Source: Verrucomicrobiota bacterium (GTDB lineage: Bacteria > Verrucomicrobiota > Verrucomicrobiia > Chthoniobacterales > UBA10450). From it: 43,432 bases of DNA. Where the stretch lies: assembly GCA_003219695.1 (NCBI GenBank), contig QHQA01000016.1, forward strand, positions 1,416 through 44,847, in the 5' to 3' direction. Positions 5,403 to 43,432 of the stretch are shown here, in pieces. A model generated the notes under the pieces. The model was given only the letters and a program-made list of their open reading frames with translations. It had not been told where the DNA came from and made no database searches. A program made the translations under genes and the position numbers. Numbering within the stretch: position 1 is the first letter of the stretch; every line of letters starts with the position of its first letter.

Positions 5403-5408
5403 ACCTCG

Positions 5409-7873: not shown

Positions 7874-7874
7874 C

Positions 7875-9897: not shown

Positions 9898-9900
9898 CAT

Positions 9901-20296: not shown

Positions 20297-20361
20297 GGAG
20301 TGGTGTATCAGTCTTGGACGCAAACCAACGAGTCCGTCGGAGTGGGCGCAAGTAGGCGCGA

Positions 20362-20496: not shown

Positions 20497-20587
20497 TTGC
20501 TTCGCGTCTGCCGTCTCGCCATTTTTAACTGCGCCAGGAATTCCTCGCTGATCGAACGGAGGTTTCTGCGGCGGTGTCTTGGGAATA

Positions 20588-21847
20588 ATGCTTTCGAACA
20601 TCTACAAAAAACCGGGGACGAGAACGATTCCGGGCCAGCACGAGTTTATTGCAAAGAAGAGTCATGGACGCGAGACTAGTGCGCCAAAATTGAAATTGCC
20701 GGAATCAAAAGGGGTTCTTTGGGGTGGCGGAGCGGCAATCGTGCTGATTTTCGCCGCGGCGTATTATTTCCTGATGCCGGTGGCGGAAGTCGTGACAGTG
20801 CGCCGGGGCACGGCCATCTCCGCGGTTTATGGGACGGTGCGGATCGAACCGGCGTTTGTAGTCCATGTTCGCGCGCAAAATGACGGCTTCATCAAATTGG
20901 CGGAAGCTTTTTCAGCCGGCCGGGGCGCAATCGGCAATAGCGTGGAAAAAGGCCAGTTGCTGGCGACGATCGCAGACGAGGAGACCGCCCGGCAATTAAA
21001 GCAAGCGCGCGCTGATTTGCAGGCGGCCATAGATCGGGCCGCGCTCCCGCTGCCCTCGTCGGAGTTACTCAAGGCAGCGGAGGATAACCTGCAGCGGCTC
21101 GAAAAGGTGGTCGGCTCGGGAAACGTGCCAGCAGTCGAATATCAGAAGGCCAAAAGCGAAGCCAACCGTTTGCGCGGCGCAGTGGAGACGGAGCGGATTG
21201 AACGGGACCGCAATCTCAATTCGCTGGAAGAAACGACAAAAAAACTGGAGGCGGAGATGAAGAACGCCGAAGTGCGATCGCCTATTGATGGACTGCTCAC
21301 CAATGTCCAGACAATCGATGGGGAACTGGTTTCCGATGGTAACGAGCTTTTCACCGTCTCGTCACGCAAGAACTACGTTCGCGGTGAAGTAAACGAAGAG
21401 GACGTGGGCGACGTGAAGCCGGGGATGAAAGCGAAGGTGCAGCTATACGCTTATCGCGCCCGAATTTTCACAGCCAGAGTCACGTCGGTTCAACCTGCTG
21501 CTGATCCAACAACCCAGCGTTACACAGTTGTGCTGGAGATGGAAAATCCGCCCGACAATTTGATGGTTGGAATGACCGGCGAGATGAACATCATCACCGG
21601 CACGCATGAAAATGCTCTCCTGGTACCGACGCGCGCTCTGCTCGTTGATCAGGCGCTGATCGTGAAAGGTGGCATTGTGCATTCGCGCACCGTCGGTGCT
21701 GGATTTCGCACTCTGGATTTTACAGAAGTGACCAGTGGCTTGGGAGAAGGAAGCCACGTGATCGTTTCCGACCAGGACAAATTCCGCCCCGGTGAAACCG
21801 TGCGGCAACGACTGATCAGCTCACCGCCGCTGCCGAAGGCGCCATGA
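20588..21847 (+). CDS. Periplasmic adaptor (HlyD/MFP family) of the ABC efflux system
   Basis: About 419 residues from ATG 20588 (TTG 20579 is possible). One N-terminal transmembrane helix (about 44-63) anchors it. A lipoyl/barrel-sandwich half, a long coiled coil (about 125-215, KQARADLQAA to KKLEAEMKNAE), the second lipoyl half (RSPIDGLLTNVQTIDGELV) and a beta-barrel domain follow. It would bridge the inner-membrane ABC pump and a TolC duct. The gene lies 291 bp after the second tolC, interrupted by a repeat. Its stop overlaps the permease start (ATGA). Confidence 0.88.
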   Translation: MLSNIYKKPGTRTIPGQHEFIAKKSHGRETSAPKLKLPESKGVLWGGGAAIVLIFAAAYYFLMPVAEVVTVRRGTAISAVYGTVRIEPAFVVHVRAQNDGFIKLAEAFSAGRGAIGNSVEKGQLLATIADEETARQLKQARADLQAAIDRAALPLPSSELLKAAEDNLQRLEKVVGSGNVPAVEYQKAKSEANRLRGAVETERIERDRNLNSLEETTKKLEAEMKNAEVRSPIDGLLTNVQTIDGELVSDGNELFTVSSRKNYVRGEVNEEDVGDVKPGMKAKVQLYAYRARIFTARVTSVQPAADPTTQRYTVVLEMENPPDNLMVGMTGEMNIITGTHENALLVPTRALLVDQALIVKGGIVHSRTVGAGFRTLDFTEVTSGLGEGSHVIVSDQDKFRPGETVRQRLISSPPLPKAP

Positions 21848-23079
21848 CCCCGCCGCTTTATATTGCGCTGCGCTTTTTGACGCATCGCAAACGCGCATTG
21901 CTTCTGAGCCTCAGCGGTGTTGTCTTCGGCGTTGCCATCTTTATTTGCACGCAAGCGCAGACGCAGGGTTTCGCCCGTTATTTCATTGACTCGAACATCG
22001 GCGCGAATGGGGCGCTGGTCATCCGATCCCGTTTTCGCCCACGCTACGAACCGCTGATAGTCGCGGCAAAAGGTTCCAAAGAGCCCACAGGGCGCCGGCT
22101 CTATTTTGAAGGCATCACCAATCCCAATGAAATCATGCGCGTGAGCCGGCAATTTCCCAATGTCGTTTCCTGTTCACCGGTCCTGCGCGGAACCGTTAGC
22201 GCTCGAGCGGGATTTGAGAACGCGACCGTCGATCTTTACGGTATCGATCCTGCGCTGCACGCGCGGACCACCGATATTCTCCACCAATTGATTGACGGCA
22301 ACTTTGATGATTTTCGAAATAACACCAGCTCAATCATTATCGGTTCGCGCCTGGCAGATCTACTTCAGGCCGGCGTCGGCGACACCGTGCAATTGCTGGC
22401 GCCTAACGGCGAGTACTGGCGATTCAGCGTCGCCGCGATCGCGCGCACGGGCATCGGATCGATTGATTCAACCCGGGTTTATTCGCACGCCAGGGTCGCG
22501 CAGGCTTTACTACAACAACCTTCTGGCGCGACGATGATCATCTATAAATTGCGCGACCCGAATCGTGCGCCGACGCTGGCCAGCCGTTTTGAAACGCTCT
22601 TTCAACACAACGCCTTGAGCTGGCAGGAACGTGAGGAGAGCACGCTGCAACTCTTTCTGACTCTGAGAATGTCGATCGCGATTACCGTCTCGCTCATCAT
22701 CCTGCTCGCCGGCTTCGGTATTTTCAATGTGCTGACCATGTCGGTGCTGGCGAAAATAAAGGAGATCGCGATTTTGCGTTCGATGGGTTACCGGCGGATC
22801 GACATTTCCGCGATTTTTCTCTGGCAAGGTGCGTTGATCGCTCTGGCAGGATCGTTGCTTGGCTGCCTGCTGGGTGCGTTGATGACTTGGGGCGTGTCAC
22901 ACATTCCCATTCGGCTCCGCGGCCTGCTTTACACGAATTACTTTCTGGTGACATGGGATTGGCGACACTATGTGTTTGCGACGTTACTCGCGACCCTGGC
23001 TGTTTTCATTGCGAGCTACGTCCCGGCGCGCCGTGCCGCTGAGTTGCCGCCGGTGGTCACGATACGAGGCTCCAGATGA
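21844..23079 (+). CDS. MacB/FtsX-type ABC transporter permease
   Basis: 411 residues. Topology: one N-terminal helix (about 15-35), a large periplasmic domain (about 40-270), then three C-terminal helices (about 280-305, 325-350, 375-395). This is the four-helix mechanotransmission arrangement of MacB, LolC/E and FtsX. LAKIKEIAILRSMGYRR is the typical coupling segment before the third helix. Unlike MacB, the ATPase is a separate protein encoded next. The cargo could be a lipid, lipoprotein, peptide or small molecule; no substrate can be read. Start ATG 21844 and end TGA 23079 overlap both neighbours by 4 bp. Confidence 0.9.
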   Translation: MTPPLYIALRFLTHRKRALLLSLSGVVFGVAIFICTQAQTQGFARYFIDSNIGANGALVIRSRFRPRYEPLIVAAKGSKEPTGRRLYFEGITNPNEIMRVSRQFPNVVSCSPVLRGTVSARAGFENATVDLYGIDPALHARTTDILHQLIDGNFDDFRNNTSSIIIGSRLADLLQAGVGDTVQLLAPNGEYWRFSVAAIARTGIGSIDSTRVYSHARVAQALLQQPSGATMIIYKLRDPNRAPTLASRFETLFQHNALSWQEREESTLQLFLTLRMSIAITVSLIILLAGFGIFNVLTMSVLAKIKEIAILRSMGYRRIDISAIFLWQGALIALAGSLLGCLLGALMTWGVSHIPIRLRGLLYTNYFLVTWDWRHYVFATLLATLAVFIASYVPARRAAELPPVVTIRGSR

Positions 23080-23777
23080 AGTCGGACACGTGCCTCAGCT
23101 GCGAAGCGATCGAGCGTTACTTGGGCGAAGAGGAGGAACGGGTGCACGCGCTGCGCGGCGTGTCGCTGGATATCGAGCCCGGCAGTATTCACGCAGTTGT
23201 TGGTCCGTCCGGCTGCGGCAAAAGTTCGTTGCTCTACATTCTGGGGTTGCTCGATCTGCCGGATGCGGGGCGCGTTTCAATCGAAGCGGAGCCAGTTTCG
23301 CAACTGAGCGATGATGAACTCGCGTACAAACGGAGCAAATTCATCGGCTTCATCTTTCAATTTCATTTTCTGATGGAGGATTTCACCGCGCAGGAAAACG
23401 TGATGATCCCAATGCGCAAACTGGGGCAACTTTCCGATGGCGACATGCGCGAACGCGCTGCCGGTTTGCTGCAAGCGGTTGGATTGGGAGACAAACTGCG
23501 GAGACCCAGCCGTCATCTCTCCGGAGGCGAACAACAACGCGTGGCTATCGCGCGCTCTCTGGCCAACGATCCAAAAGTCATTCTGGCTGACGAGCCCACC
23601 GGCAACCTCGACACTGCGAATTCCGAGCGCGCTTTTGAGCTGCTGCAGAACATCGTGCAACAAGGCGGCAAAGCTCTGCTTCTAGCCACCCATAATCCAG
23701 TTATTGCCGAAGCGTGCGACTGGATTCACGAGATGAAAGACGGGCACATCGTCGCCAGCCATCCACGGGCTGCGTAA
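23076..23777 (+). CDS. LolD/MacB-type ABC transporter ATPase
   Basis: 233 residues. Walker A GPSGCGKSS (43-51), Q-loop within FIFQFHFL, signature LSGGEQQRVA (148-157), Walker B VILADEP (168-174) and the switch histidine in LLATHN. Sequence type matches the MacB/LolD/FtsE group that powers extracytoplasmic permeases. ATGA overlap with the permease proves coupling. It ends the export operon; 101 bp follow before the next gene. Confidence 0.95.
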   Translation: MKSDTCLSCEAIERYLGEEEERVHALRGVSLDIEPGSIHAVVGPSGCGKSSLLYILGLLDLPDAGRVSIEAEPVSQLSDDELAYKRSKFIGFIFQFHFLMEDFTAQENVMIPMRKLGQLSDGDMRERAAGLLQAVGLGDKLRRPSRHLSGGEQQRVAIARSLANDPKVILADEPTGNLDTANSERAFELLQNIVQQGGKALLLATHNPVIAEACDWIHEMKDGHIVASHPRAA

Positions 23778-23878: not shown

Positions 23879-25147
23879 ATGGAGAACAGTCTGCCTATCT
23901 TGATCGCCGATCGCCCCGAGGCGTTAATCGAATTGTGCGGTGTGAACTTGCTAGAACGTTTGCTCCGCATTTTGCAGCGACTCGGATTTCGCCGCGCCAT
24001 TGTTTTTTCGAGCACGCCGGAAATCGTTGGAGCTGATTTGGCGAAGCGCTCATGGGCGCGCGAAGGATTGAGCGTCCAGCTTGTGTCGGGCGCAATGACA
24101 CCTCTTACTGTCCAACTGCTTTTGGAACAAACGGGGGAACGCTTTTTAATCGTGCCGGCAAATATCTATTGTGACGCCCGGCTGCTCGCCGCCCTCTGCG
24201 CCAACAATTCATCGGCCGCGCTTGTCGATTCGAATCCACCGGAATTTGCGCAGTCTTTGATTCGAAATCCATGCGGTCCTGCGCTAATCACGAGAGATTT
24301 TCTTTTCACCCTTTCACCAACAGCGCCGTTTCTCAACGAACTCATAAGAAAGATCGATCACGGCAAGATCAATGTCGTGGACGCCGCGAAGCAAGATGAT
24401 TACATCGTCGCCATGCGTCGGCATGTGCGGCCACTCTGCTTCCGGGTGCCACTGGATCAGGACTGTCGCCTCGCGGAACGCATCATCCTCGATTCCGCGC
24501 AGAAGGGAACGCTTGACTTGCCGGCTTACGTTCACGCGCCAATCGAAACCGCATTGATATCGCTCCTTTGCAAAACGCCAATCACACCAAACCAAATTAC
24601 CATTGCAGGATTAATCATCGGATGCAGTGCCACTGTGGCCTTTGTGACAGGCCGCGTTGGCCTGGGAACCCTTGCCGCTCTTATTTTTGGCATCGTTGAT
24701 GGACTGGATGGGAAACAGTCGCGCGTCAAAGTTGAAACCACCGAACGCGGCAAGTGGGAACATCATCTTGATTATTTGATCGAGAACTCGTGGTGGGCAG
24801 CAATCGCCTTTCAATTGTGGCGAAGCGGTCAATTTCCGAACGCTTTCTATTTTCTCGCCTTGCTCATCGGATCACACTTATTGGATGAGTTCGCAAAACG
24901 CCGCGCGAAGATGGTGGAAGGCCGCCTGCTCGATGACGTTACGCAGTTCGACCGAGCCTTCCGGCTGATCGCGGCTCGAAGGAACGTTTATGTTTGGATA
25001 CTGGCGTGTGGGTTTTTATTACGCGCTTTTCCGCAAAGCTACGCGCTGATCTGCGGATGGGCCGCCTTCAGCGCTGCCGTTCATCTCCTGCGCTCCACTT
25101 GGATTTGCCACAGCGGTCTGCGTCGCCTTGTTGACATCCGAAGATGA
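23879..25147 (+). CDS. Nucleotidyltransferase-like / CDP-alcohol phosphotransferase fusion
   Basis: 422 residues. The N-terminal half (1-220) has the outline of a nucleotidyltransferase (LIADRPEALIELCGVNLLER) but lacks the glycine-rich GxGxR loop and other catalytic signatures, so it may be inactive. The C-terminal half (about 225-415) is a membrane CDP-alcohol phosphotransferase. Its motif is DGLDGKQSR with D274 and D277, then G291, D298 and E302, a variant spacing (KWEHHLDYLIEN) in place of the usual second D-x3-D. The same two activities are fused in archaeal and thermophile enzymes that make inositol phosphodiesters. Here it may transfer an alcohol-phosphate head group to a lipid. The last 129 bp overlap the convergent radical SAM gene. 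Confidence 0.75.
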   Translation: MENSLPILIADRPEALIELCGVNLLERLLRILQRLGFRRAIVFSSTPEIVGADLAKRSWAREGLSVQLVSGAMTPLTVQLLLEQTGERFLIVPANIYCDARLLAALCANNSSAALVDSNPPEFAQSLIRNPCGPALITRDFLFTLSPTAPFLNELIRKIDHGKINVVDAAKQDDYIVAMRRHVRPLCFRVPLDQDCRLAERIILDSAQKGTLDLPAYVHAPIETALISLLCKTPITPNQITIAGLIIGCSATVAFVTGRVGLGTLAALIFGIVDGLDGKQSRVKVETTERGKWEHHLDYLIENSWWAAIAFQLWRSGQFPNAFYFLALLIGSHLLDEFAKRRAKMVEGRLLDDVTQFDRAFRLIAARRNVYVWILACGFLLRAFPQSYALICGWAAFSAAVHLLRSTWICHSGLRRLVDIRR

Positions 25148-33834: not shown

Positions 33835-34638
33835 GTGAAAAAAGTTTTTCTTACCGGCGCGAGCTCCGGCATCGGTCTGGCCATCGCGAAGCTGCTAATT
33901 GCCCAAGGTCACGAGGTTTGGGGCACGTCGCGCAATTTAGAACGCATACCGAAGCTGCCGCGACTACATCCGGTTCGGCTCGACCTGACCGACCCGCATT
34001 CAATTGAAGAGCCATTTAACCAGGCGCTTGCAGAAGCGGGTCATTTCGACGTCGTAATCAATAATGCCGGGAGCGGTCACTTCGGACCGGTTGAGTTTCT
34101 CTCCGGACAAGAAATCGCGAGTCAGTTTCAAATTCTCGTTTTTGGGCAGGTTCAGTTGATGCGGCTGGCCTTGCACATGATGCGGGCACGAAGGGAAGGC
34201 TTAATTATTAACGTGACATCGCTCGCGTCTCGTCTCCCAGTGCCGTTCATGGCCGCTTACAACGCCGCCAAAGCAGCGATGGCGTCATTTACAATGACCA
34301 CCCAGATCGAGCTGGGCGATTCCGGCGTGCGCCTGGTCGATCTTCAACCAGGTGATATTTGCACGGAATTTAACCAGGCGGTGAGTAAGAGCACGCAAGG
34401 CGACCCCTCTTACGACACCAAAGTCGCCAAAACCTGGGACGTCAGCGAGCGTAATATGAAAAAGGCTCCAAAGCCCGATCTTGTCGCTCGCCAGGTTCTC
34501 AAACTGATCAGCGCCGTTCACCCGCCGCCGCGGATAACAGTTGGCGATGCATTTCAATCGAAAATCGCGCCATTGATATTCCGTTTCCTTCCTCAACGCG
34601 TCAGCATTTGGGGACTAAGAAGGTACTACAAAATATGA
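33835..34638 (+). CDS. Classical short-chain dehydrogenase; 3-ketosphinganine reductase candidate
   Basis: 267 residues from GTG 33835. NAD(P) motif TGASSGIG (7-14), NNAG (76-79) and the catalytic S129, Y142, K146 are all present, so it is probably an active reductase. The stop overlaps the start of the cytidylyltransferase-like gene (ATGA 34635-34638), so they are co-translated. A sphingolipid pathway starting from serine palmitoyltransferase needs a ketone reductase, and this is the only classical SDR next to the locus. The family is too broad to prove that role, and known bacterial ceramide reductases (CerR) are a different branch. Confidence 0.88.
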   Translation: MKKVFLTGASSGIGLAIAKLLIAQGHEVWGTSRNLERIPKLPRLHPVRLDLTDPHSIEEPFNQALAEAGHFDVVINNAGSGHFGPVEFLSGQEIASQFQILVFGQVQLMRLALHMMRARREGLIINVTSLASRLPVPFMAAYNAAKAAMASFTMTTQIELGDSGVRLVDLQPGDICTEFNQAVSKSTQGDPSYDTKVAKTWDVSERNMKKAPKPDLVARQVLKLISAVHPPPRITVGDAFQSKIAPLIFRFLPQRVSIWGLRRYYKI

Positions 34639-35387
34639 GTCGCATCTCCGAAGCAGTGATCTTGATGGCCGGGGAAGGTTCGCGTCTGCGCGGTTCGGAT
34701 AAAACTGTCCTGAAACCATTCGTCCCGGTGCTTGGCCGCCCCTTGATTTCGTACATCCTGGATGCCTTGATCAACGCTGGGATCAAAACCGTCAACTTCG
34801 TGGTCGGCTACGAAAGCGAGCGAATCATCGCGCAGGTCAGGCAGTTGTTTCCTTCCGGCCTCAGCGCGTTCTTCATCGAAAATCCTGATTGGCAAAAACA
34901 GAACGGCGTCTCGCTTCTTGCCGCCGCCGGTCACGTCGGCGTGCCGTTTCTCCTCACGATGGGCGACCATCTCTTCGATAACGCGATTGTCGATCGTCTA
35001 ATCGAGTCATCGGATCCGGATTTGGTCAACCTCGCTGTGGACCGAAAACTCCATTCCATTTTCGATTTGCGTGATGCGATGAAAGTACAAACGCGCAGAA
35101 ACATCGTTACCGATATCGGGAAAGATCTGCGGGAGTTCGATGCGATTGATACGGGTTTGTTTGTTTGCTCCCTCGAAATCTTTAATTATCTCGAGCGCGC
35201 GAAGTCCGGCAATTCCGAAAGCTTTCGGGATTGCAGTTTGGCTGACGGAGTCCGAATGATGGCTGCTGACGGGAAGGTCCGCGCCATCGATATAGGCGGC
35301 GCATGGTGGCAGGACGTCGATACTCCGCAAATGTTGCACCACGCAGAAAAGGAGATGGCCAAACGCGCGGAGCACGCACTGACCTAA
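34635..35387 (+). CDS. Sugar/inositol-phosphate nucleotidyltransferase (inositol-1-phosphate cytidylyltransferase-like)
   Basis: 250 residues from ATG 34635, which overlaps the SDR stop. Nucleotide loop MAGEGSRLR (11-19) and K27 in LKPFVP, ENPDWQKQNGVSLLAA (82-97), MGDHLFD (109-115), DAMKV near 147-151, IGKDLREFDAIDTGLF (161-176) and WQDVDTP near the end. GDH in place of a DxD, and the IGKDL..DAIDTG block, are as I recall them in inositol-1-phosphate cytidylyltransferases of the IPCT-DIPPS type; choline-phosphate enzymes are the main alternative. It would make CDP-inositol from CTP and inositol 1-phosphate. Its stop overlaps that of a convergent CDP-alcohol phosphotransferase, and an inositol-phosphate synthase is in the same window. 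Confidence 0.72.
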   Translation: MSRISEAVILMAGEGSRLRGSDKTVLKPFVPVLGRPLISYILDALINAGIKTVNFVVGYESERIIAQVRQLFPSGLSAFFIENPDWQKQNGVSLLAAAGHVGVPFLLTMGDHLFDNAIVDRLIESSDPDLVNLAVDRKLHSIFDLRDAMKVQTRRNIVTDIGKDLREFDAIDTGLFVCSLEIFNYLERAKSGNSESFRDCSLADGVRMMAADGKVRAIDIGGAWWQDVDTPQMLHHAEKEMAKRAEHALT

Positions 35388-36136
35388 TCCGGATCAGCGA
35401 CTGCGTTTTTAGGGCGGGCAGCCCGCAGCATCAGATCACGGCTCGCGCACGAGACTTCGCCGTGGCCATTGCTGGCCCTGATCGCGGCGAACGCGCTGAG
35501 AACCAGGCTTGTGCCAGCAACAATTGTCCAAAGATACAGGATCCAGTCAGCGAGGTTCAGGATCGCCAGCAGCAGAAAAACGAAAATAGCGACGTCTCGC
35601 TTTGTCAGCTGAAAGACCCACCACGCAAATCGTTCACCCAGATTAAGCAAACCGGAATGCCCGATCATTCCGTGGTGTCTTGGGTAAAACGACTCATGCA
35701 ACTCCGAAGAAGCAATCCACATGGGAGTGCTGCCGCCATGCAGAAGCCATTCGTTCGCCGTAATCAGCACGGCGCAAACGAGTCCTTGGCTTGCATGATG
35801 AAGCCCGAACCCAAGCGCCAGCACATAAATGAGGCTTGCGATAAAATCGCAAAAGTAATCCAGGCGTTCCCCGAATTTTGATTCCAAATTTTTGGCGCGT
35901 GCAATTTCGCCGTCGCAACCATCAAGAATACTGAACAGTTGAAAAATGGCCGCGCCGATGACGACGCTTACGTAATCGCCGCGCATTAGGAACACGCTTG
36001 CGATCAGCGGCAGTACAAAAATCGATACTGTGCATGTGTTGGGATGAATCGGAAACCGGCGGAGAAAACGCGTGATGCGTCGCGAAATCGGCCGATTTAA
36101 AAACCGCGAAACGAAACCGTCTTGGGGCTTGCTCAT
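35384..36136 (-). CDS. CDP-alcohol phosphotransferase (canonical motif)
   Basis: 250 residues from ATG 36136 (TTG 36139 possible). A membrane enzyme of about six helices with the complete signature DGCDGEIAR, then G, D and D (D72, D75, D93, D97). These aspartates bind two metals and catalyse transfer of a phospho-alcohol from a CDP-linked donor. The DGCDGEIAR form resembles the phosphotransferase half of di-myo-inositol-phosphate-type enzymes. It faces the cytidylyltransferase-like gene tail to tail with overlapping stops, suggesting that the pair supplies and uses the same CDP-alcohol. The gap upstream (36137-36285) shows no gene. Confidence 0.85.
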   Translation of the reverse strand: MSKPQDGFVSRFLNRPISRRITRFLRRFPIHPNTCTVSIFVLPLIASVFLMRGDYVSVVIGAAIFQLFSILDGCDGEIARAKNLESKFGERLDYFCDFIASLIYVLALGFGLHHASQGLVCAVLITANEWLLHGGSTPMWIASSELHESFYPRHHGMIGHSGLLNLGERFAWWVFQLTKRDVAIFVFLLLAILNLADWILYLWTIVAGTSLVLSAFAAIRASNGHGEVSCASRDLMLRAARPKNAVADPD

Positions 36137-36285
36137 CAAATTCAGCGTCCTGTGGAAATTTGGGATGGATTAAGACTTGCGTAACTTGGCAGGTCACGCC
36201 GCGAGAGTCAAAACCTCCCTGCCGAACGTAAGATTCGGAAACTCCCGCAAACGCTGGAACTAAAGGAAGCTGTAAACGTGGAAAA

Positions 36286-37425
36286 TTATGCCCGGGAGAT
36301 TGATTTCCTGTAGATGCGGTAGGTTTTGTAGCGCTCTGCCCCGATCGCTTCGAGGAAACGGTTGATCATGAAATTGTCTTCCAGTGTCATGCTCAATTCG
36401 CCGGTCATCCCGCCTTTAATCATTGGTTCTTCAATAATCCGCAACACCAGCATCTCGGCGATTCCGGTGCGGCGATATTTTTCAACTACCCCGAGCGCGA
36501 TCAGACGCACTTTGCGGATGCGTTTTTTGTAAAACAGCAATTTGATCAGACCGATCGGAAGCCCAAAACGAGTCAGACGCCCGTTGAGATCGCGCAGGAC
36601 AACGTTGATGTCCGGAAGACACAAGATGAATCCGACTGGTTCATTCCCGATCTCGGCGATCCAGGCGAGCTCCGGCGCCAGCAGCGGCTTCAGTTCTTCG
36701 GTCATGAAATCGATTTCCGCTTCTGTGAACGGCACGAACCCCCAATTCTTTTGCCACGCCTGATTGAAAATTTCGCGAAGCCGCCTGCTCTCGTCGTGAA
36801 GGTTCTTCAGATTTGCCGGACGAATAACGGCGGGACAGCGCCTTTGGAACCGCGCGACCAGCGGTCGCAAATGTGCCAGGGCTTTTGACGGGTCAGCGAA
36901 CCACCACGCGTACCAATCCTTGGCTTTGATAAAACCGCAGCTCTCGATCAATTCGCGGTAGTACGGCGGATTGTGCGCGGTTAGTATGGTGGGTGGAAAC
37001 TGGAATCCATCGATTAACAGGCCACAGACGTAATTGGTCGAATAATCGATCGGTCCCATCATCTCGCTGCGGCCTTTCTTCCGCAGCCAACTGGCTGCGG
37101 CTTCGAAGAGAGCAGCGGCTACCTCGCGGTCGTTGATGCACTCGAACAGCCCGAAACAGCCGACGTTCGATTGATGCAGCGAATTGTAATTCGGATCGTC
37201 GCTGGCCATGATGCGCCCGGCGATCTCGCCGTTTTTCTGCGCTAGAAATAATGCGGCATCGCCGTGCCTGTAAAACGGATGCCCCTTGCGATCGAGAAAA
37301 CTTTTGCGTTCGATGATTAATGGTGGCACCCACGCCGGATCGCTTGCGTAAATTTGCCACTGAAATTTGATGAACGCGTTGCGTTCACGGCGCGCGACGA
37401 CTTCTGAAACTTCAATGTCCGACAC
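36286..37425 (-). CDS. Large GNAT-like acyltransferase; bacterial ceramide synthase candidate
   Basis: About 379 residues if translation starts at GTG 37425, 17 nt after the stop of the CDP-alcohol gene with AGAGGA upstream. A longer frame from 37521 would overlap that gene and adds residues unlike the family start. Visible segments: FIKFQWQIYASDPAWVPPL, GFFGLFE-like CFGLFECIND, MGPIDYSTNYVCGLLIDGF, and a GNAT core near ALGVVEKYRRTGIAEML. This long two-lobed GNAT family includes, as I recall, the Caulobacter N-acyltransferase bCerS. Here it would attach a fatty acid to the amine of a sphingoid base. The neighbouring alpha-oxoamine synthase supports this. No assay or alignment was possible. 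Confidence 0.68.
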   Translation of the reverse strand: MSDIEVSEVVARRERNAFIKFQWQIYASDPAWVPPLIIERKSFLDRKGHPFYRHGDAALFLAQKNGEIAGRIMASDDPNYNSLHQSNVGCFGLFECINDREVAAALFEAAASWLRKKGRSEMMGPIDYSTNYVCGLLIDGFQFPPTILTAHNPPYYRELIESCGFIKAKDWYAWWFADPSKALAHLRPLVARFQRRCPAVIRPANLKNLHDESRRLREIFNQAWQKNWGFVPFTEAEIDFMTEELKPLLAPELAWIAEIGNEPVGFILCLPDINVVLRDLNGRLTRFGLPIGLIKLLFYKKRIRKVRLIALGVVEKYRRTGIAEMLVLRIIEEPMIKGGMTGELSMTLEDNFMINRFLEAIGAERYKTYRIYRKSISRA

Positions 37426-37441
37426 GAATAGAAAACGTCCT

Positions 37442-38377
37442 CTACGCCAAATTTTCCCTTCGCTCCGCAACTTCCAACAGCGATTCAGCCATGTGTTCCT
37501 GGCGTGTAACCAGATAGACAAGCAGCAGATTGAGCGGCATGAGTTCGAACCAGAAATAGTAAATCGGCTGGCCGATCAACAGAAGGACAAACAAAACTAA
37601 CATTCGTGTGTTTGTCATCAATAACCGCCACGATTTCAAGGCCGGGCTTGCCAGATTTTGATAGCGAGTTCTTAACCAGTCAGAGCTTTCGCCTTGAAAC
37701 AGTTGGCCGGTCAGTTCCCGCACTTTTTTCAGACGCGGCGCGAGGATCTCCTGCTGGCGAGTGAAATTCCAATACAGCGCCAGCAAAAGTTTGTCCCACG
37801 GTCGCTGGTGCCAGGTCAATTTTCGGTAGTCCGCGCGCAGTTCGGACGAGGAATCCAGTTCGCCGCGTGCTCCGTTTGTTACAAAATAAAGGTAGGTGCT
37901 GCGGTAATAATCAGCTGCCGCGCCTTGCAACGCGTGACTGATCCCGGCGGCAAGTCCGAGAAACCAGATCGCTGGCGACGCACCTGCGAGCGCATACCGG
38001 AGAACCAGATGCACGTAAATGCTCGCGAACACCACGTGGTCGGCGATGCTGTCAACGATGCGCCCTTCGCGGCTTTGCCGTCGCGTCAAACGCGCGAGCT
38101 GACCGTCCGCGTTATCCAGCGCATTGGAGCAAACATGCAGCACCATGCCCACGATGTTGATGCGCAGATCCCGATAAAAATAAAAGTGCCCCGCAATCAC
38201 GCCGCAAACGCCGGCCAGCAGGCTCACAGCCGCGGGCGTTATCTTGAGTCGCGCGAAAAACTGGGCCAGCCAAAACCCTATTGGCCTGTAAAAATAGAGG
38301 TCGAGAACGCCCTCCACCTCGCGTGCCTTATACGTGGCTTCGACGCGCGAACGAAGCGCCTCGGTCTGCTCCGACAT
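37442..38377 (-). CDS. CDP-alcohol phosphotransferase, second canonical copy
   Basis: 311 residues from ATG 38377. A longer frame (to 38695) runs into the upstream synthase gene and encodes low-quality sequence, so it is rejected. The motif DNADGQLAR, then G, D and D (D88, D91, D109, D113) is complete. Several hydrophobic helices flank it, and a longer C-terminal region (about 190-311) has two more helices. It is sandwiched between the alpha-oxoamine synthase (17 bp upstream) and the GNAT gene (17 bp downstream). A role in adding the polar head group to a ceramide-like lipid fits the position; a second phospholipid product cannot be excluded. Confidence 0.83.
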   Translation of the reverse strand: MSEQTEALRSRVEATYKAREVEGVLDLYFYRPIGFWLAQFFARLKITPAAVSLLAGVCGVIAGHFYFYRDLRINIVGMVLHVCSNALDNADGQLARLTRRQSREGRIVDSIADHVVFASIYVHLVLRYALAGASPAIWFLGLAAGISHALQGAAADYYRSTYLYFVTNGARGELDSSSELRADYRKLTWHQRPWDKLLLALYWNFTRQQEILAPRLKKVRELTGQLFQGESSDWLRTRYQNLASPALKSWRLLMTNTRMLVLFVLLLIGQPIYYFWFELMPLNLLLVYLVTRQEHMAESLLEVAERRENLA

Positions 38378-38394
38378 CGATTTACTCGGCAAGC

Positions 38395-39759
38395 TCAGGC
38401 GCTTTGCTTTTGTAGCAACGCTGGAACCAGCGTGTCCTCGAGAATGTTCAGTGCTTCGTCCAAGTCCGCGCGCGTGTGTTTGGCAGTGACGCAGGCGCGG
38501 AAACAGATTCGGTTTTGCGGCACCGCTGGATAATCCACTGGCGCGACCCAAAGACCGCGCCGCCGCAATTCGTGGCCGAGCCGATACATGCGCCCCCGAT
38601 CGCCGATGACAATCGGCATCACGTAAGTTGTCGATGCTCCAGTGTCGAGCCCGAGCTTGTGCAGTTGGGCATAGAAGTAATTGGCGTTTTCCCAAAGTTT
38701 CGCGCGCAGCTCCGGGTGGCTTATGGCAAGTTCCAGCGCTTTAAGAATCGCCGCAATCACCACCGGCGGTAGCGCACAGGAGTACACATACGGATGCGCA
38801 TAGAAACGCAGGTATTGCAGCGTCTCCTTTGAACCTGCAACGAAGCCGCCCAGTGCGCCGAACGCTTTGGAAAACGTCCCGTAAACCAGCGGGAACCGGT
38901 CTTCCACGCCGAAATGCTCGGCCGCGCCTCGGCCGTGTTCGCCGCATCCCAGCATGGAATGTGCTTCATCGATGAAAACCTTCGCACCATGAGAGTCTGC
39001 GACATCGAGCAGTGGCCTTAAATTTCCGAAGTCGCCATCCATGGAATAAATGCCTTCGACGACGACGAGCTGGCGCCGGGCTTTCTCACGGCTTAAAGCG
39101 GCGTCGAGTGAGGCGGGATCGTTGTGCTCGAATTTTCCCGTGCGACACCGCGACAGGACCGCTCCATCGCGAAGACTGAGATGCGAACGGTTATCCAGAA
39201 TCGCAACGTCGCTCTTGCGCAACAGCCCGGAGATGGTGCCGAGAGCGCCGCCAAAACCGCTGTTGAAAAGCATGGCGTCCTCGCGGCCAAGAAATTTCGC
39301 GACGCGCTGTTCGAGCTCGCGATGGAGATCGGTCATGCCTGAGAGCATGGGCGAACCACACGCTCCCATGCCGTGGGTCCGCAGTGCTTCCTGCGCGGCG
39401 GCGATTACTTCAGGATGATTAGCAAGACCAAGATAATTGTACGAGCAGAGATTAATCACCGGCCGCGGCTTGCCGTCGTAGTTGATCGTCGTGCGGGCGT
39501 CTGCACTCGCGAGCAGCTCAGGCTCATACAGTTCAGCGGCCCACGCGCCCTGGCGCATCCAGTTTGTAAAGCTCGGCGGCGCTTGTAACGGGTCGTCACT
39601 TTCGCCCGCCAGGAAATTACTGAGACTAAGTTTCGCGACTTCCTCCAGGTTCATCAGGCTGTACAGTGTGTTTCGCTCGCTCGCCTCTCGATGGACGGTA
39701 TTTCCCAGTAAAACTGGGTAATTTTGTGCTTCACCAGACTCCTTACGAGGTTTTTCCAC
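38395..39759 (-). CDS. Alpha-oxoamine synthase; serine palmitoyltransferase candidate
   Basis: 454 residues from GTG 39759; internal ATG 39654 is a possible start. Fold-type I PLP enzyme: LCSYNYLGL (104-112), NSGFGGALG, IDEAHSMLG (263-271) and GTFSKAFGALGGF with the PLP lysine K298. The family joins an amino acid and an acyl-CoA: SPT (serine), KBL, BioF and ALAS. BioF or KBL cannot be excluded by motifs alone. The directly adjacent fatty-acid hydroxylase, delta-4 desaturase-like and ceramide-synthase-like genes make SPT the best reading. There is no biotin or threonine gene nearby. Confidence 0.8.
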   Translation of the reverse strand: MEKPRKESGEAQNYPVLLGNTVHREASERNTLYSLMNLEEVAKLSLSNFLAGESDDPLQAPPSFTNWMRQGAWAAELYEPELLASADARTTINYDGKPRPVINLCSYNYLGLANHPEVIAAAQEALRTHGMGACGSPMLSGMTDLHRELEQRVAKFLGREDAMLFNSGFGGALGTISGLLRKSDVAILDNRSHLSLRDGAVLSRCRTGKFEHNDPASLDAALSREKARRQLVVVEGIYSMDGDFGNLRPLLDVADSHGAKVFIDEAHSMLGCGEHGRGAAEHFGVEDRFPLVYGTFSKAFGALGGFVAGSKETLQYLRFYAHPYVYSCALPPVVIAAILKALELAISHPELRAKLWENANYFYAQLHKLGLDTGASTTYVMPIVIGDRGRMYRLGHELRRRGLWVAPVDYPAVPQNRICFRACVTAKHTRADLDEALNILEDTLVPALLQKQSA

Positions 39760-39887
39760 TGCTTTGACAGACCACAGAGTTTTCGCGTCGGGGCAGCCAA
39801 TCTATGGGGTTTCGGATTTAAGGACAAGACTTTAGTGCAACTGTAGCGTCCGATTTTAGGAGATGTGCGGCTACCCGGATGCGGCGA

Positions 39888-40502
39888 TTACCTGCGCGTT
39901 GTGCGAAAGACGTAGTCCCAAAGCGGCGAGCTGATGCCGAACCCGACGTGGTCATCCCTGTAATGATGGCGAAGATGATACTGTTTCAGCCAGAGCCAGG
40001 CGCCGCGTTTCATGGAGAAATGGTGGATCGCGTAATGCATCATGTCGTAGCAGACATAGCCGAACACCAGCCCGGCGAATGCGCTCGGCGCAAAGCGCCC
40101 GAAAATTAACAGGAACACGCCGTAGAAAAGAATCGCAAGCGGTACGCTGATACTGGGCGGCATCACCAGCCGTTTCGCATCGTTTGGATAATCGTGATGC
40201 ACGCCGTGGATGATGTAGTGCAACCGTTTTCCCACGCGCGTCTTCGGTTCGTAATGGAAAATGTATCGGTGGATGAGGTATTCGAGCAGCGTCCAGAGCA
40301 GGATGCCGAGCAGGAAAAATGCTGCGACAGCGAAGATCGACAATCTTTGCCGCCACAACGCGAGGTAAAACATGCAGCCGACTACCGGGAGGTAGAGGAC
40401 CAGCGGCGTGGCGGGGTGAACGCGCGAGAAAAATTCCACGAAATCGCTCTCGAACATGCGGACCGTTTCGTTCTTGGTCGAGACGTAGCGTCGCTCAGCC
40501 AT
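39888..40502 (-). CDS. Fatty-acid 2-hydroxylase (FA2H/Scs7-like), fatty acid hydroxylase superfamily
   Basis: 204 residues, four or so helices. The diiron histidines are arranged as in FA2H: HRYIFH, LHYIIHGVHHDYPND, MHYAIHH and YHLRHHY, ending GFGISSPLWDYVFRT. HGVHHDYPND..RLVMPP is characteristic of the branch that 2-hydroxylates the acyl chain of ceramides in eukaryotes. No cytochrome b5 domain is fused, as expected for a bacterial form. The start ATG 40502 lies 2 bp after the stop of the desaturase gene, so the two are coupled. The 128-bp gap to the next gene (39760-39887) holds no further gene. Confidence 0.88.
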   Translation of the reverse strand: MAERRYVSTKNETVRMFESDFVEFFSRVHPATPLVLYLPVVGCMFYLALWRQRLSIFAVAAFFLLGILLWTLLEYLIHRYIFHYEPKTRVGKRLHYIIHGVHHDYPNDAKRLVMPPSISVPLAILFYGVFLLIFGRFAPSAFAGLVFGYVCYDMMHYAIHHFSMKRGAWLWLKQYHLRHHYRDDHVGFGISSPLWDYVFRTTRR

Positions 40503-40504
40503 AC

Positions 40505-41533
40505 TTAAAACCTAATGGGCCGGGCACTGAGATCAAGACTGCCATTTCCGTGGCTTACTGTCTGAGAAGTCTCGTGAATCCCATCCTTTTCTTTCATGCG
40601 TTCGACTCGCGAATACAAGCTGTATCGCCTGTCAAAAATGAACTGCAAAAGCAACCGGCTCCATGATGCGTGATACTTCAGGTTATCGTAAAATTCCGGC
40701 GCCATCGCGCGCAGCTTCGGCAGGTTGTTCCACGGGATCGATGGCAAATCGTGGTGCTCATTGTGGTAACCCATATTCAGCGCCACCCGATTGATCGGCC
40801 CGTAATAACTGAACGTTTCCTGATCGAAATCGTAGGTGTAATGCTCTTGAATCCAGCGCGCCCCGACCGGATGCAGCCCGATGGAGAACAAAAACGCGAA
40901 CACGAGATACAGAAATCCGGCCCAGCCGAAGAAATAAACGATCGCCACATCGTACGCGGCTGCGCACGCGAGATTGATGGTGAACCAGCGGTCCCACATC
41001 TTGATCGCTTTCAGTCGAGGCGGGCGCGTCACCTGGAAAAACGGAAAGAGCATCAGCCAGATCGCTTTCCGGTACCATTTGTTTCCCACCAGGCGCGCCT
41101 CCCAATGGTTCGCCAGATCGGCGTCCCATTCGTAATCGCCCTGGTGCGAATGATGTTTCAAATGATAAACGCGAAAGCCCATCGCGCCGGGTGTGAGATT
41201 TGGAAGGTCAGCGATGATGGCCACCATGATATTCCAGCTTTTGCGGCGGAAAATCAGGTTATGCGTCGCGTCATGAATGATGACGTAATTGGCGTGATTG
41301 GCGAAAGCGCCGACGGAAAACGCAATCAGCAGGCTCAGCCACCAATAACCGAAACCCAACTGCCCCATTCCGTACGCGATCGTTGTTTGCATGATCAGGA
41401 TCGAGACCGCGATCAGCGCAGTCCATGGATTGCGCACCATCAATTGCCGGACTTCCGGATGCGCCTTGATGATCGCCCGCGCACGCCCCGGATGCGGCTG
41501 TTCAGAGCCTGACTTGTAAAACGCGGTCTGCAT
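40505..41533 (-). CDS. Membrane fatty-acid desaturase resembling sphingolipid delta-4 desaturase (DEGS)
   Basis: About 342 residues from ATG 41533 (GTG 41536 possible). Three histidine boxes: HDATHN (about 87-92), HLKHHSH (124-130) and HNEHHD (257-262). Beyond the boxes, several stretches read like the eukaryotic sphinganine desaturase: HPEVR near the start, GLHPVGARWIQEHYTYD, ETFSYYGPINR, MGYHNEHHDLPSIPWNNLP and FYDNLKYHASW. This is stronger than a generic desaturase match and suggests a double bond in the sphingoid base. It lies directly after the RND gene and 2 bp before the hydroxylase gene. Confidence 0.85.
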   Translation of the reverse strand: MQTAFYKSGSEQPHPGRARAIIKAHPEVRQLMVRNPWTALIAVSILIMQTTIAYGMGQLGFGYWWLSLLIAFSVGAFANHANYVIIHDATHNLIFRRKSWNIMVAIIADLPNLTPGAMGFRVYHLKHHSHQGDYEWDADLANHWEARLVGNKWYRKAIWLMLFPFFQVTRPPRLKAIKMWDRWFTINLACAAAYDVAIVYFFGWAGFLYLVFAFLFSIGLHPVGARWIQEHYTYDFDQETFSYYGPINRVALNMGYHNEHHDLPSIPWNNLPKLRAMAPEFYDNLKYHASWSRLLLQFIFDRRYSLYSRVERMKEKDGIHETSQTVSHGNGSLDLSARPIRF

Positions 41534-41567
41534 CACGCCTTCAAACTATTGCATCGCAGCCGCATCC

Positions 41568-43432
41568 TCAATCGCGCTTTTTCAACGGCGCGCCGCCGAG
41601 CAGCGGCAGAACAAAAAGGTTCGCCAGAATATCGATGACGCATCCGGCAAGCACGACGAGACCGAACCGTTGCGTCGGCGGAAAATCCGAGAGCACGAAA
41701 ATGGCAAAGCCGGCGGCGATGATCAGATCCGAATAGACGATCCCGCGCCATTGTTCTTCGCGTCCGGCCGCCCATGCAGCCCAGCCTTTCTTTCCATCTT
41801 GCTGCGCGCGACGCACGCCGAAGACAAGATGAATCATCGAATCGATGGCGATGCCGATGCAGACGTTCGTGGCCGGCGCCGAAATAATGTCCACTGGCAC
41901 ATTGAACCAGCCGATGCCCCCAAGCATCGACAGTGGCACAAGCGTCAGGCTCGCGATCATGGCAAATGCGCCGCGGATGGATCGGGCGACGACGAACGCG
42001 ATCACAACGAACAACACATTTAGCCAGAACAATCCGGTCACCAGGCTCTCGGCGACCAGCTTGGCCAGCCGTCCCTGCAAATAGTAAATCCCGCCGACTA
42101 GGTCAGCCTTAAATCCATATTTGTGGCAGACAGCGCGAAGATCGTTCACCACATCGACCCGATATTTCGTCCGGCGCGCCTCGATCATCCGCAGCATGAA
42201 CACCGCTTCTTTGCGGTCGTCGGTGACAAAACTTTTTGACACGCGCGCGTACTTCGGTTGCGCCATGATCTCCATCATTTTTTCGTAGCTGATAAGAAAT
42301 GAAAACGGCGTGCGATCGCCTTCGGCCAGAAGAGTCGGCAGCGAAATCACAGTGCCAACGTCTTTCTCGTTCTCCAACGCGCCGTGGAGTCTCCACATTT
42401 TTTGGTAAGCCTCGTCCGTGTTCAACAGGCTGCCGTTCCTCGCGGACACGACCAGTGTGAGCGGGTTGGAGCCGCCGGTGCGATCGACGAATTCCAAGCC
42501 GTCGCGCAGTGGCTGATTCGGTTTGAAATAGGCCATGATGCTCGGGTCAGTGTTCACTTTGCTCAGGCCAAATCCCAAACATGCCGCCAGCAAAATGACG
42601 GCTAACGAGAGCAAAGCAAAACGGCGCGACCAAAATGCGTGCGTCGGTTCTGCCTCCACGATTTTGCTTCTGCGCGGCACAGCCCAGCGTAGGAACGCCG
42701 GATACATCAGGTACGCCGAAGCGAATGCCACGACTGTCCCGAGCACCCCGCCAAATCCCAGCTCGCGCAGCGGCTTTGCCTGAACAATCAGCAGACTGGC
42801 GAAGCCTAACGAGGCGCAGACCATCGACCAGAACGACGGTGGAAAAGTCATGCGCCGCGCGTCTGCCGCGAGGTTCGGCGATTCTTTGCCCATGCGGTGC
42901 GCGCGGTCGGCGAGCGTCTGCCAGTTGAACGTCATATAGACCAGATGCGACAACGCAATCACGAACACGATCGTGCCGAGGTTCACCGTGAGGATTCCGA
43001 TCTTTTGACCAAGGATTGATTGGATGAGCAACGTCAACAAAACGGCGCTCGTGCAAGTGCAGAGCATTCCTATAAACAGCCGGATGGACCGGAACAGCGC
43101 CGCCATCGTTAGGCCAAACAACACTACCGCCGTGAGACTGAAGTAGCGGAAATCGTGCGCCAGACTGCGCCGGAGCATTTCCACCACGTACGGCGGGCCG
43201 GCGACATGAATCCGAAAATCTGGCGCATCCAGCTCATGCACAATCTGCTGGAGGCGCTGGATCGGCTGTTCGGTGTGCTTGCCTCTCATGAAAATGATCA
43301 CGTTGCTGGCCTTCCGATCAGTCGCGATCAACAAGCGGCTCCAGAACGGGCTCTTGATCGCATCTTCAAAGCTTTTCGGTCCCTCGGCCAAACTCTTGAC
43401 CGCGCTGGCTCCGCCGATGGTGTGAACGCGTT
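41568..43432 (-). CDS. RND/MMPL-family lipid exporter, 5' end beyond the window
   Basis: The frame is open to the window edge, so the N-terminus is missing; the TTG at 43391 is not a real start. 621 codons are present, with two blocks of membrane helices separated by a periplasmic domain (about FKPNQPLRDGLEFVDRTGG to VDVVNDLRAVCHKYG). The architecture matches MMPL/HpnN-type exporters of hydrophobic lipids. It is the first gene of the minus-strand run leading into the desaturase, hydroxylase, synthase and acyltransferase genes, 34 bp before the desaturase. Export of the finished lipid to the outer membrane is the likely role, by inference. Confidence 0.83.
   Translation of the reverse strand, partial: RVHTIGGASAVKSLAEGPKSFEDAIKSPFWSRLLIATDRKASNVIIFMRGKHTEQPIQRLQQIVHELDAPDFRIHVAGPPYVVEMLRRSLAHDFRYFSLTAVVLFGLTMAALFRSIRLFIGMLCTCTSAVLLTLLIQSILGQKIGILTVNLGTIVFVIALSHLVYMTFNWQTLADRAHRMGKESPNLAADARRMTFPPSFWSMVCASLGFASLLIVQAKPLRELGFGGVLGTVVAFASAYLMYPAFLRWAVPRRSKIVEAEPTHAFWSRRFALLSLAVILLAACLGFGLSKVNTDPSIMAYFKPNQPLRDGLEFVDRTGGSNPLTLVVSARNGSLLNTDEAYQKMWRLHGALENEKDVGTVISLPTLLAEGDRTPFSFLISYEKMMEIMAQPKYARVSKSFVTDDRKEAVFMLRMIEARRTKYRVDVVNDLRAVCHKYGFKADLVGGIYYLQGRLAKLVAESLVTGLFWLNVLFVVIAFVVARSIRGAFAMIASLTLVPLSMLGGIGWFNVPVDIISAPATNVCIGIAIDSMIHLVFGVRRAQQDGKKGWAAWAAGREEQWRGIVYSDLIIAAGFAIFVLSDFPPTQRFGLVVLAGCVIDILANLFVLPLLGGAPLKKRD

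Follow-up and report, generated by a model that had tools for sequence, protein, structure and literature searches.

A conserved Verrucomicrobiota locus predicted to make a sphingolipid with DEGS- and FA2H-type tailoring

Introduction

Bacterial sphingolipids are known, while a Delta4 double bond and 2-hydroxylation of the FA2H type are usually treated as eukaryotic tailoring. A 43,432-nucleotide stretch of a Verrucomicrobiota genome (assembly GCA_003219695.1, contig QHQA01000016.1, positions 1,416 to 44,847; the whole stretch is called the window here) raises the question of whether both modifications may also be bacterial. A sequence-only reading of the window, made without database searches, had proposed that the genes at 33835–43432 form a locus for sphingolipid biosynthesis, tailoring and export. 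Protein families, the genomic context of the ceramide synthase and conserved gene order support the biosynthetic and tailoring parts of this proposal. As judged from sequence comparisons, the block is a real, conserved locus whose product is very probably a sphingolipid tailored by DEGS- and FA2H-type enzymes. A ceramide-type lipid is a highly likely product, and it is reasonably likely that this chromosomal locus serves a complex bacterial sphingolipid. The predicted lipid is most likely a ceramide with Delta4 unsaturation, a 2-hydroxylated acyl chain and a phosphorylated head group, which may be inositol.

Gene content and conservation of the locus

The block was re-read by open reading frame (ORF) calling and by Pfam and NCBIfam family searches (Table 1). 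All gene types previously named were found as open frames with family matches, and one gene absent from the earlier list, an NTP transferase (NTPT), was added. The earlier description of the genes as lying mostly on one strand applies to the seven genes on the minus strand, running from 43430 down to 35384, and is corrected for the short-chain dehydrogenase/reductase (SDR) and NTPT, which form a plus-strand pair at 33835–35387 with the SDR stop and NTPT start overlapping as ATGA at 34635–34638. Likely starts differ from the longest ORFs for CDP-alcohol phosphotransferase 1 (CDP-AP1; ATG at 38377), the GNAT-type N-acyltransferase (bCerS; near 37425) and the alpha-oxoamine synthase (AOS; perhaps ATG at 39654). 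The contig stops at base 44847, the last position of the window, and this cuts off the 5' part of the MMPL gene.

The genus was sampled through 35 draft genomes, including that of the window. The desaturase (DES, by PF08557) was detected in 26 of these, the hydroxylase (FAH) in 29, AOS (E up to 1e-100) in 27 and bCerS in 24. Three genomes with no PF08557 match (G002, G011 and G022) have FAH and AOS, and partial DES genes are present in L181 and L183. Gene order, which had been suggested for comparison between related genomes, is kept as far as the contigs reach in 26 genus loci from 25 other genomes (DES in 26, FAH in 25, AOS in 21, CDP-AP1 in 19 and bCerS in 17) and in two other genera. Genus loci missing a core gene reach a contig end before it, among them the seven without CDP-AP1. 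The two other genera (L063 and L064) retain DES-FAH-AOS-CDPAP1-bCerS together with SDR and NTPT. The second CDP-alcohol phosphotransferase, CDP-AP2, is not constant, being present in eight of the 26 genus loci, with a fused type in its place in some relatives. In G002 (L182), the genes between FAH and the inositol-phosphate synthase, both included, are arranged as in the window from 40502 down to 16186, with the 26248–30984 stretch absent. One genome (G015) carries two divergent copies of the locus, whose DES to bCerS proteins are 64–85 % (L043) and 74–85 % (L050) identical to those of the window.

Eight genes of the window were each compared with as many as five loci of the genus, loci with interior stops being left out, and in 33 of 33 comparisons the rate of nonsynonymous change (dN) was lower than the synonymous rate (dS) (dN 0.013–0.189, dS 0.10–1.87; for DES, 0.040–0.125 and 0.35–1.18). 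The block genes are under purifying selection. Gene content, protein families, conserved order, selection and the intact metal ligands described below are features of the sequences themselves.

Outside the genus, PF08557 was matched in none of 23 further genomes in that search. Across the phylum it was present in five of 387 genomes: that of the window, two other genera of the family, a distant genome assigned to Kiritimatiellae through an identical named record (L065) and a likely eukaryotic contaminant contig. The last (G397; L061, contig C10), in a genome of the same class, was rejected as a bacterial desaturase carrier; it has split desaturase and synthase frames, and its other ORFs are eukaryote-like by eye.

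Table 1. Predicted genes of the sphingolipid block (first nine rows) and further candidate members of the locus in the window
Feature	Coordinates	Strand	Family match
MMPL/RND transporter, 5' part missing; possible lipid exporter, facultative	41568..43430	-	PF03176 77.5 bits
DES, DEGS-family sphingolipid desaturase (Delta4-desaturase or DEGS2-like C4-hydroxylase)	40505..41536	-	PF08557 34.8, PF00487 93.2
FAH, SCS7/FA2H-type ceramide fatty acid 2-hydroxylase without cytochrome b5	39888..40502	-	PF04116 70.3 bits
AOS, serine palmitoyltransferase-like alpha-oxoamine synthase	38395..39759	-	Aminotran_1_2 185.3 bits
CDP-AP1, CDP-alcohol phosphotransferase, constant member; proposed ceramide head-group transferase	37442..38377	-	PF01066 43.1
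bCerS, GNAT-type bacterial ceramide synthase	36286..37425	-	Acetyltransf_1 38.0 bits
CDP-AP2, second CDP-alcohol phosphotransferase	35384..36139	-	PF01066 49.3
NTPT, CTP:inositol-1-phosphate cytidylyltransferase-like	34635..35387	+	NTP transferase family 50.1 bits
SDR, 3-ketodihydrosphingosine reductase-like	33835..34638	+	SDR family 142.2 bits
Myo-inositol-1-phosphate synthase, proposed head-group supplier, probable member	16186..17295	-	PF01658 123.4 bits
Fused NTP-transferase-like/CDP-alcohol phosphotransferase, alternative head-group enzyme	23879..25147	+	PF01066 25.2
Two TolC-type proteins and ATPase (by eye), HlyD, MacB/FtsX permease; possible export machinery, uncertain member	17517..23777	+	HlyD, FtsX/MacB families

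The N-acyltransferase

The assignment of the GNAT protein as a bacterial ceramide synthase is strong. Over its full length (380–385 columns) it is 38 % identical to YghO, 37.5 % to a Roseomonas plasmid homologue, 35 % to one from Acidisoma and 31 % to one from Sphingomonas parapaucimobilis, in a set that excluded Caulobacter CC_1154 itself. The Sphingomonas and E. coli homologues are located in clusters with a serine palmitoyltransferase (SPT)-type synthase, an acyl carrier protein (ACP), an epimerase-type reductase and LptF/G, and these clusters resemble the Caulobacter ceramide genes as described in PMC11324152. In the E. coli PN43 plasmid record (L179), a Caulobacter-like sphingolipid cluster occupies 2343–10122 beside glc genes and consists of LptF/G, an SPT-type synthase, ACP, an epimerase-type reductase, an acyl-AMP ligase and YghO. 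By similarity and context, YghO is classed as a ceramide-synthase-type protein.

Whole genomes were searched for 14 of 80 named desaturase loci, which are the best 80 of at least 555 relatives of DES. Twelve of the 14 belong to other phyla (Bacteroidota, Ignavibacteriota, Acidobacteriota and Dadabacteria) and two to Verrucomicrobiota in the broad sense. A bCerS homologue was present in 13 of these genomes, at only 29–30 % identity in three, and directly adjoins an SPT-type gene in seven (G441, G442, G444, G445, G448, G449 and G450); the adjoining SPT passes the NF047600 equivalog cut-off in four of the seven. An AlphaFold model made from the single GNAT sequence had a mean pLDDT of 39 and was unusable. 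It is very likely that this protein would carry out N-acylation.

The desaturase

DES passes the cut-off of 23 bits for Lipid_DES (PF08557, 'Sphingolipid Delta4-desaturase') and also matches FA_desaturase (PF00487). It is 34.5 % identical over 316 columns to a human DEGS1 sequence, for which a Pfam check gives 74.3 bits for Lipid_DES and 91 for FA_desaturase; this DEGS1 is 42 % identical to a Saprospiraceae desaturase. The only further desaturase in the comparison, a Sphingomonas protein annotated 'fatty acid desaturase' and encoded near bCerS, gave no significant match. A grouping with acyl-lipid desaturases, raised earlier as the alternative, was thus not seen in a comparison with one non-DEGS desaturase rather than a wide set. 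The three histidine boxes of the family are kept: histidine fills eleven alignment columns in every one of 28 rows and two further columns in 27 of them, with a partial eukaryotic exon and the Sphingomonas outgroup left out. Of these 13 columns, 12 are histidine in DEGS1.

Relatives of DES were encoded by at least 555 genome stretches among at least 592 matched in a scan of genome contigs, and the Lipid_DES cut-off was passed by all three named loci scanned with Pfam (L128, L133 and L137). The sequence-only reading had treated both tailoring enzymes as eukaryotic in type; the families were right, but they are not rare in bacteria, given this number of desaturase-relative stretches and the presence of the hydroxylase in bacterial clusters. 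A DES tree was reconstructed from 18 of the 80 named loci and eight fetched loci, all hand-picked. The window DES shares a clade with the Bacteroidota rows L133 and L142 (support 100/100, starred), and two eukaryotic rows fall among bacterial rows; the outgroup is too far for rooting. Recent acquisition of single genes from eukaryotes, considered as the simple explanation, is not supported because bacterial relatives are common and the window copy groups with the two Bacteroidota rows. The L133 and L142 desaturases are 67–70 % identical to that of the window, above the other Bacteroidota rows compared, and the rest of the cluster was absent from the flanking DNA examined, a pattern that may reflect transfer. 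In a viral collection, 43 stretches matched the search pattern and none encodes a desaturase relative.

DES was modelled with AlphaFold from 29 sequences, of which the 80 named loci supplied 28, and the model had a mean pLDDT of 82.9. It matched two chains of chloroplast FtsHi motor complexes (E 4.3e-6 and 1.7e-5, TM 0.59 and 0.58) and, at E >0.001, stearoyl-CoA desaturase and AlkB. The model is in line with a membrane desaturase/hydroxylase, no more.

If DES were mainly a C4-hydroxylase, the product would be a phytosphingosine-type 4-hydroxy, 2-hydroxy ceramide with no double bond. Mammalian DEGS2 is bifunctional, and the two activities cannot be separated by sequence. The name given to DEGS2 in PMC13161914 is 'Sphingolipid delta4-desaturase/C4-monooxygenase'. 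Nothing specific was found to set against hydroxylation beyond the Delta4-desaturase name of the family and the shared histidines. A predominantly C4-hydroxylating enzyme is considered unlikely, and Delta4-desaturation is favoured with some confidence over C4-hydroxylation or another reaction.

The hydroxylase

Up to an E value of 1, the only PDB matches of FAH were two chains of yeast SCS7 (E 2.2e-33 and 4.1e-33), a closeness that applies within the PDB set, PF04116 enzymes of other function with no solved structure lying outside this comparison. SCS7 is the yeast ceramide very-long-chain fatty acid hydroxylase. Ten columns are histidine in 26 of 26 rows including SCS7, copies of 195 aa or shorter or with interior stops being excluded. 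FAH has no fused cytochrome b5, PF04116 being the sole domain found in its 204 aa, and the SCS7 chain 4zr0 has 392 aa; the fused domain is present in fungal and animal FA2H members and absent from plant members.

Homologues 45–53 % identical to FAH were detected in eight of the 14 desaturase-bearing genomes, or nine if a broken Kiritimatiellae copy is counted. FAH, SPT, bCerS and the dehydrogenase CerR are consecutive in Saprospirales GYS_P2D. The Chitinophaga rupis region runs from SPT, bCerS and CerR through an inositol-phosphate synthase, genes of PgpA and GtrA type and a large ORF with no family assignment to a CDP-alcohol phosphotransferase (CDP-AP) and the FAH homologue. With 406 bits, this CDP-AP exceeds the 350-bit cut-off of the BT1523 PIP-synthase model, and the hydroxylase adjoins a PAP2-type, phosphoinositol dihydroceramide synthase-like protein (314 bits, below the cut-off of 480). 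C. japonensis and, for the most part, Mucilaginibacter have the same layout as judged by mutual similarity, their proteins not having been scanned separately. In all three (L205, L206 and L207) the hydroxylase stands between the CDP-AP and the PAP2-type protein, with SPT and bCerS in the region. PF04116 proteins also lie beside the synthase or bCerS on plasmids of the Acetobacteraceae Acidisoma and Roseomonas, the Roseomonas protein being a weaker relative of FAH (32 % over 151 columns). It is probable that FAH would perform 2-hydroxylation.

A Kiritimatiellae metagenome-assembled genome (MAG; L062/L065) has a cluster at L062 9110–12931 with the order hydroxylase, bCerS, epimerase-type reductase and desaturase, surrounded by ORFs that are transposase-like by eye. 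In this cluster the hydroxylase frame is broken, and a stop falls within the bCerS match.

Head-group and flanking genes

The best PDB matches of NTPT are the inositol-phosphate cytidylyltransferase (IPCT) structures 2xme (E 1.1e-20) and 4mnd, with the stretch IGKDLREFD..DTG.FV in common, and its best NCBIfam match, NF041135, scores 123 bits, far under the cut-off of 580. The motif DxxDGxxAR...GxxxDxxxD is complete in CDP-AP1 (DNADGQLAR...GRIVDSIAD) and in CDP-AP2, which matches AF2299 and IPCT/DIPPS best in the PDB, and is altered in the fused protein. The inositol-phosphate synthase is linked to the locus in G002 (L182), adjoins bCerS in G007 (L032) and is present in 28 of the 35 genus genomes, mostly on contigs where linkage cannot be judged.

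The N-terminal part of the fused protein has no Pfam match and is NTP-transferase-like by eye. Homologues of this protein are found between bCerS and NTPT in five relatives (L033, L054, L063, L064 and L184), the place occupied by CDP-AP2 in the window. The third motif Asp of the window copy is replaced by His (GKWEHHLD). A radical SAM gene adjoins the fused gene in four of the five relatives.

The probability that the head group is inositol is evenly balanced, and phospho-inositol may, we infer, be transferred directly onto ceramide. A CDP-inositol route is not a new idea, as PMC9246714 proposes a route with an NTP transferase and a CDP-AP, without proof. A ceramide kinase step is also possible because a DAGK-type kinase lies upstream of MMPL in two relatives (L038 and L050). 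The genes upstream of MMPL in these two loci, where the window contig has ended, are of Kdo transferase, RsmD, AsmA and YegS/DAGK type.

The region at 26248–33688 encodes epimerase, PMT-like and GT2 glycosyltransferase, YdjC-like and Wzx-like proteins. With such neighbours, the locus could instead belong to a cell-surface glycan or glycolipid, in which the CDP-APs, NTPT, glycosyltransferases and Wzx-type flippase would build a phospho-polyol polymer and the lipid enzymes would make its anchor. GT2 and Wzx genes follow SDR in L182 and L185, the latter also having PMT- and epimerase-like genes. However, the flanks vary, 26248–30984 being absent from L182, whereas DES-FAH-AOS-CDPAP1-bCerS is constant as far as contigs reach. 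This alternative is unlikely, to about the same degree as a mainly C4-hydroxylating DES, and the sphingolipid locus is preferred.

The MMPL ORFs of three relatives are 711, 722 and 735 aa long. The export-type genes of Table 1 are colinear with the locus in G002 (L182). Elsewhere in the window, a tRNA-Sec followed by SelD-, SelA- and SelB-like ORFs (5215–9897; names by eye except for the tRNA) forms a compact selenocysteine locus.

The synthase

The best PDB matches of AOS are Sphingobacterium SPT (260 bits) and E. coli KBL (256 bits). AOS trees were reconstructed from seven genus loci, hand-picked from the 21 with the gene, and 30 whole-genome-search loci minus the window's copy; six long-branch rows were dropped, and two more, from Kiritimatiellae and Acidisoma, were dropped for a 35-row tree. 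The AOS clade (11 rows) is deep and well supported. It joins the SPTs with support of 96/82 (starred) in the 35-row tree. In the 37-row tree, a split with support of 96/79 (no star) separates the SPTs, the Kiritimatiellae and Acidisoma rows and the cluster from KBL and BioF. The only other AOS found in the genome with the SPT model (contig C176) groups with E. coli Kbl, and BioB was not found over its cut-off in this 93 % complete genome (best 40 of 225 bits). With a separate KBL gene and no BioB over the cut-off, AOS is unlikely to act in threonine degradation or, as a BioF, in biotin synthesis. AOS stands as a separate deep lineage whose nearest neighbours are probably SPTs, and is the weakest link of the reading. 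Its most likely substrate, as suggested by the gene neighbours, is serine.

Use of another amino acid by AOS would give a sphingolipid analogue, not a true ceramide, with the same tailoring on that N-acyl base. Such cases are known in cysteate fatty acyltransferases, which lead to sulfonolipids, and in the use of alanine or glycine, which gives 1-deoxy bases; Delta4-unsaturated bacterial sulfonolipids may also be known. The position of AOS as a deep lineage apart from all reference SPTs, below every SPT cut-off, would fit an analogue, and sulfonolipid synthesis is postulated to resemble ceramide synthesis in PMC9304779. However, a head-group module of the CDP-AP kind needs a free 1-hydroxyl, which by established chemistry sulfonolipids and 1-deoxy bases do not have, and the best PDB match is an SPT at 260 bits against 205 for the cysteate enzyme. 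An analogue is rather improbable, slightly more so than the alternatives given above for DES and for the flanking genes, and a ceramide is preferred.

An ordinary AOS of the KBL/BioF type, clustered with DES and FAH that work on different membrane lipids and have no pathway in common with it, is highly improbable. In its favour, bioF is the top-scoring NCBIfam model for AOS (342 against a cut-off of 426), and KBL- and BioF-sister trees are not rejected; against it, a separate KBL exists, no BioB passes the cut-off and the order with a ceramide-synthase-type acyltransferase is kept in three genera.

Evidence weighing against the reading

Several results weigh against a sphingolipid pathway in this locus, and the first concern the synthase. 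AOS scores under all SPT equivalog cut-offs (317.5, 315.1 and 255 bits against 500, 640 and 670). A KBL-sister position gave p-AU values of 0.154 with 35 rows and 0.107 and 0.215 with 37 rows, and a BioF-sister position gave 0.301. The SPT identity of AOS rests mainly on context because of these scores and the KBL-sister trees. A synthase grouping with BioF/KBL had been foreseen as the main threat to the reading; the grouping with SPTs, the separate KBL and the lack of BioB speak against it, and the KBL position at p-AU 0.154 keeps part of that threat in place.

No NCBIfam ceramide synthase model matched GNAT or its relatives. The SDR protein matches 220 SDR-type models, among which the KdsR model NF049977 is second-best, at 182 bits against a cut-off of 400. 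Neither an acyl carrier protein nor an acyl-ACP synthetase was found among ORFs of at least 100 aa, the size range searched; both are typical of proteobacterial ceramide clusters. The Spartobacteria relative (L144) carries the block with no hydroxylase in a homologue search. MMPL lies near DES in only 12 of the 26 genus loci, at a distance of about 1 kb in L047, with the contig of at least L036 ending too close to tell. The exporter proposed earlier is therefore present as a gene but is not a regular part of the locus, and export of the lipid by MMPL is a tentative suggestion, somewhat doubtful.

The remaining points concern linkage. The other genes of the window were not near the desaturase in 78 of the 80 named loci, within the flanking DNA examined, some of it short. 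Block genes were near the desaturase in only two (L065, Kiritimatiellae, and L144), with weak matches besides to four SDR proteins and one reductase-type protein among the 80. Linkage between the desaturase and sphingolipid genes is thus not general: clustering was seen only in Verrucomicrobiota relatives, and co-occurrence in the genome is wider. Among 11 desaturase-bearing genomes, seven have a synthase in the SPT clade, one has a cluster-type synthase and one a long-branch synthase beside the cluster clade. The other two (G443 and G447) have no synthase in the SPT or cluster clades, and the desaturase may therefore have other substrates there.

Proposed pathway and significance

We infer every catalytic step, the order of substrates and the head group. 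The SPT-like AOS would start by condensing an acyl thioester with an amino acid, for which serine is the best candidate, and SDR would reduce the 3-keto group. The GNAT-type ceramide synthase would then N-acylate the base, DES would insert the Delta4 double bond (or a C4 hydroxyl) and FAH would 2-hydroxylate the N-acyl chain. NTPT would form a CDP-polyol, most likely CDP-inositol, from the inositol phosphate supplied by the synthase in the window, a CDP-alcohol phosphotransferase would transfer phospho-inositol to ceramide, and the MMPL pump might move the lipid outward.

A literature search of titles and the starts of abstracts, mostly excluding subscription papers, found no bacterial Delta4-sphingolipid desaturase, no FA2H-type hydroxylase of bacterial ceramide and no sphingolipids of Udaeobacter. 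Spt-like proteins have been described in 22 Verrucomicrobiota MAGs from the Black Sea (PMC11334938), in an article whose text contains neither the word desaturase nor the word hydroxylase. It is proposed, with a confidence that falls a little short of even, that bacteria of several phyla make Delta4-unsaturated, 2-hydroxylated ceramides by means of DEGS and FA2H homologues, and that this lineage packs the pathway with a CDP-inositol route to a phosphoinositol ceramide in one locus. If this is true, the modifications that define eukaryotic sphingolipids would be a bacterial trait of long standing, either shared or exchanged. Even a bacterial origin of the eukaryotic enzymes is conceivable, a direction that the DES tree does not set. 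This would bear on the reading of environmental ceramides as eukaryotic and on the origin of eukaryotic sphingolipid enzymes. The locus offers candidate genes for both tailoring steps, tied to a ceramide synthase and a head-group module, and the interest lies less in this single locus than in the evidence for a place of the two families in bacterial ceramide metabolism across phyla. The question is directly testable because the hydroxylase is located in the ceramide clusters of Chitinophaga rupis DSM 21039 and C. japonensis DSM 13484. Both genomes also contain a gene of the DEGS type.

Comparison with known systems

In Caulobacter crescentus, CC_1152–CC_1168 comprise genes for ceramide and ceramide-phosphoglycerate (PMC11324152). 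In common with the window, one region holds an SPT, an N-acyltransferase (CC_1154, CerS), a CDP-alcohol-type protein (CC_1159) and nucleotidyltransferases, and the amide-linked acyl chain is hydroxylated there and predicted to be so here. Caulobacter alone has the ACP, an acyl-ACP synthetase, the dehydrogenase CerR, a second LptC/F/G and a DesA-family hydroxylase encoded elsewhere (CC_0202), the family to which ceramide hydroxylation is attributed in that species (PMC11324152). The window, unlike Caulobacter, has an SDR, an SCS7/FA2H-type hydroxylase, a DEGS-type desaturase and an IPCT-like enzyme.

Bacteroides thetaiotaomicron has an inositol sphingolipid cluster, BT_1522-1526, and an alternative cluster of inositol-phosphate synthase (MIPS), NTP transferase, CDP-AP and HAD genes has been proposed, as has a CDP-inositol alternative route in Bacteroides and Prevotella, unconfirmed in that article (PMC9246714). 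Inositol-phosphate synthase and CDP-AP are common to the window and B. thetaiotaomicron, with the NTP transferase in its alternative cluster. Unlike in these clusters, the window ORFs examined included no recognisable AUR1-type PI-dihydroceramide synthase and no HAD protein, and the window has SPT-like, ceramide synthase, hydroxylase and desaturase genes in the same block.

With Archaeoglobus IPCT/DIPPS (2xme, 4mnd) and AF2299, the window has in common the pairing of an NTP transferase with a CDP-AP, the IGKDLREFD..DTG.FV stretch and the CDP-AP motif. It differs in that the genes are separate and on opposite strands and in that the proposed acceptor is ceramide, not inositol phosphate. With eukaryotic DEGS1/DEGS2 and SCS7/FA2H, the tailoring enzymes share their families and metal-binding histidines, whereas DES is about 34 % identical to DEGS1, FAH has no cytochrome b5, and both are encoded in a gene cluster of a bacterial host.

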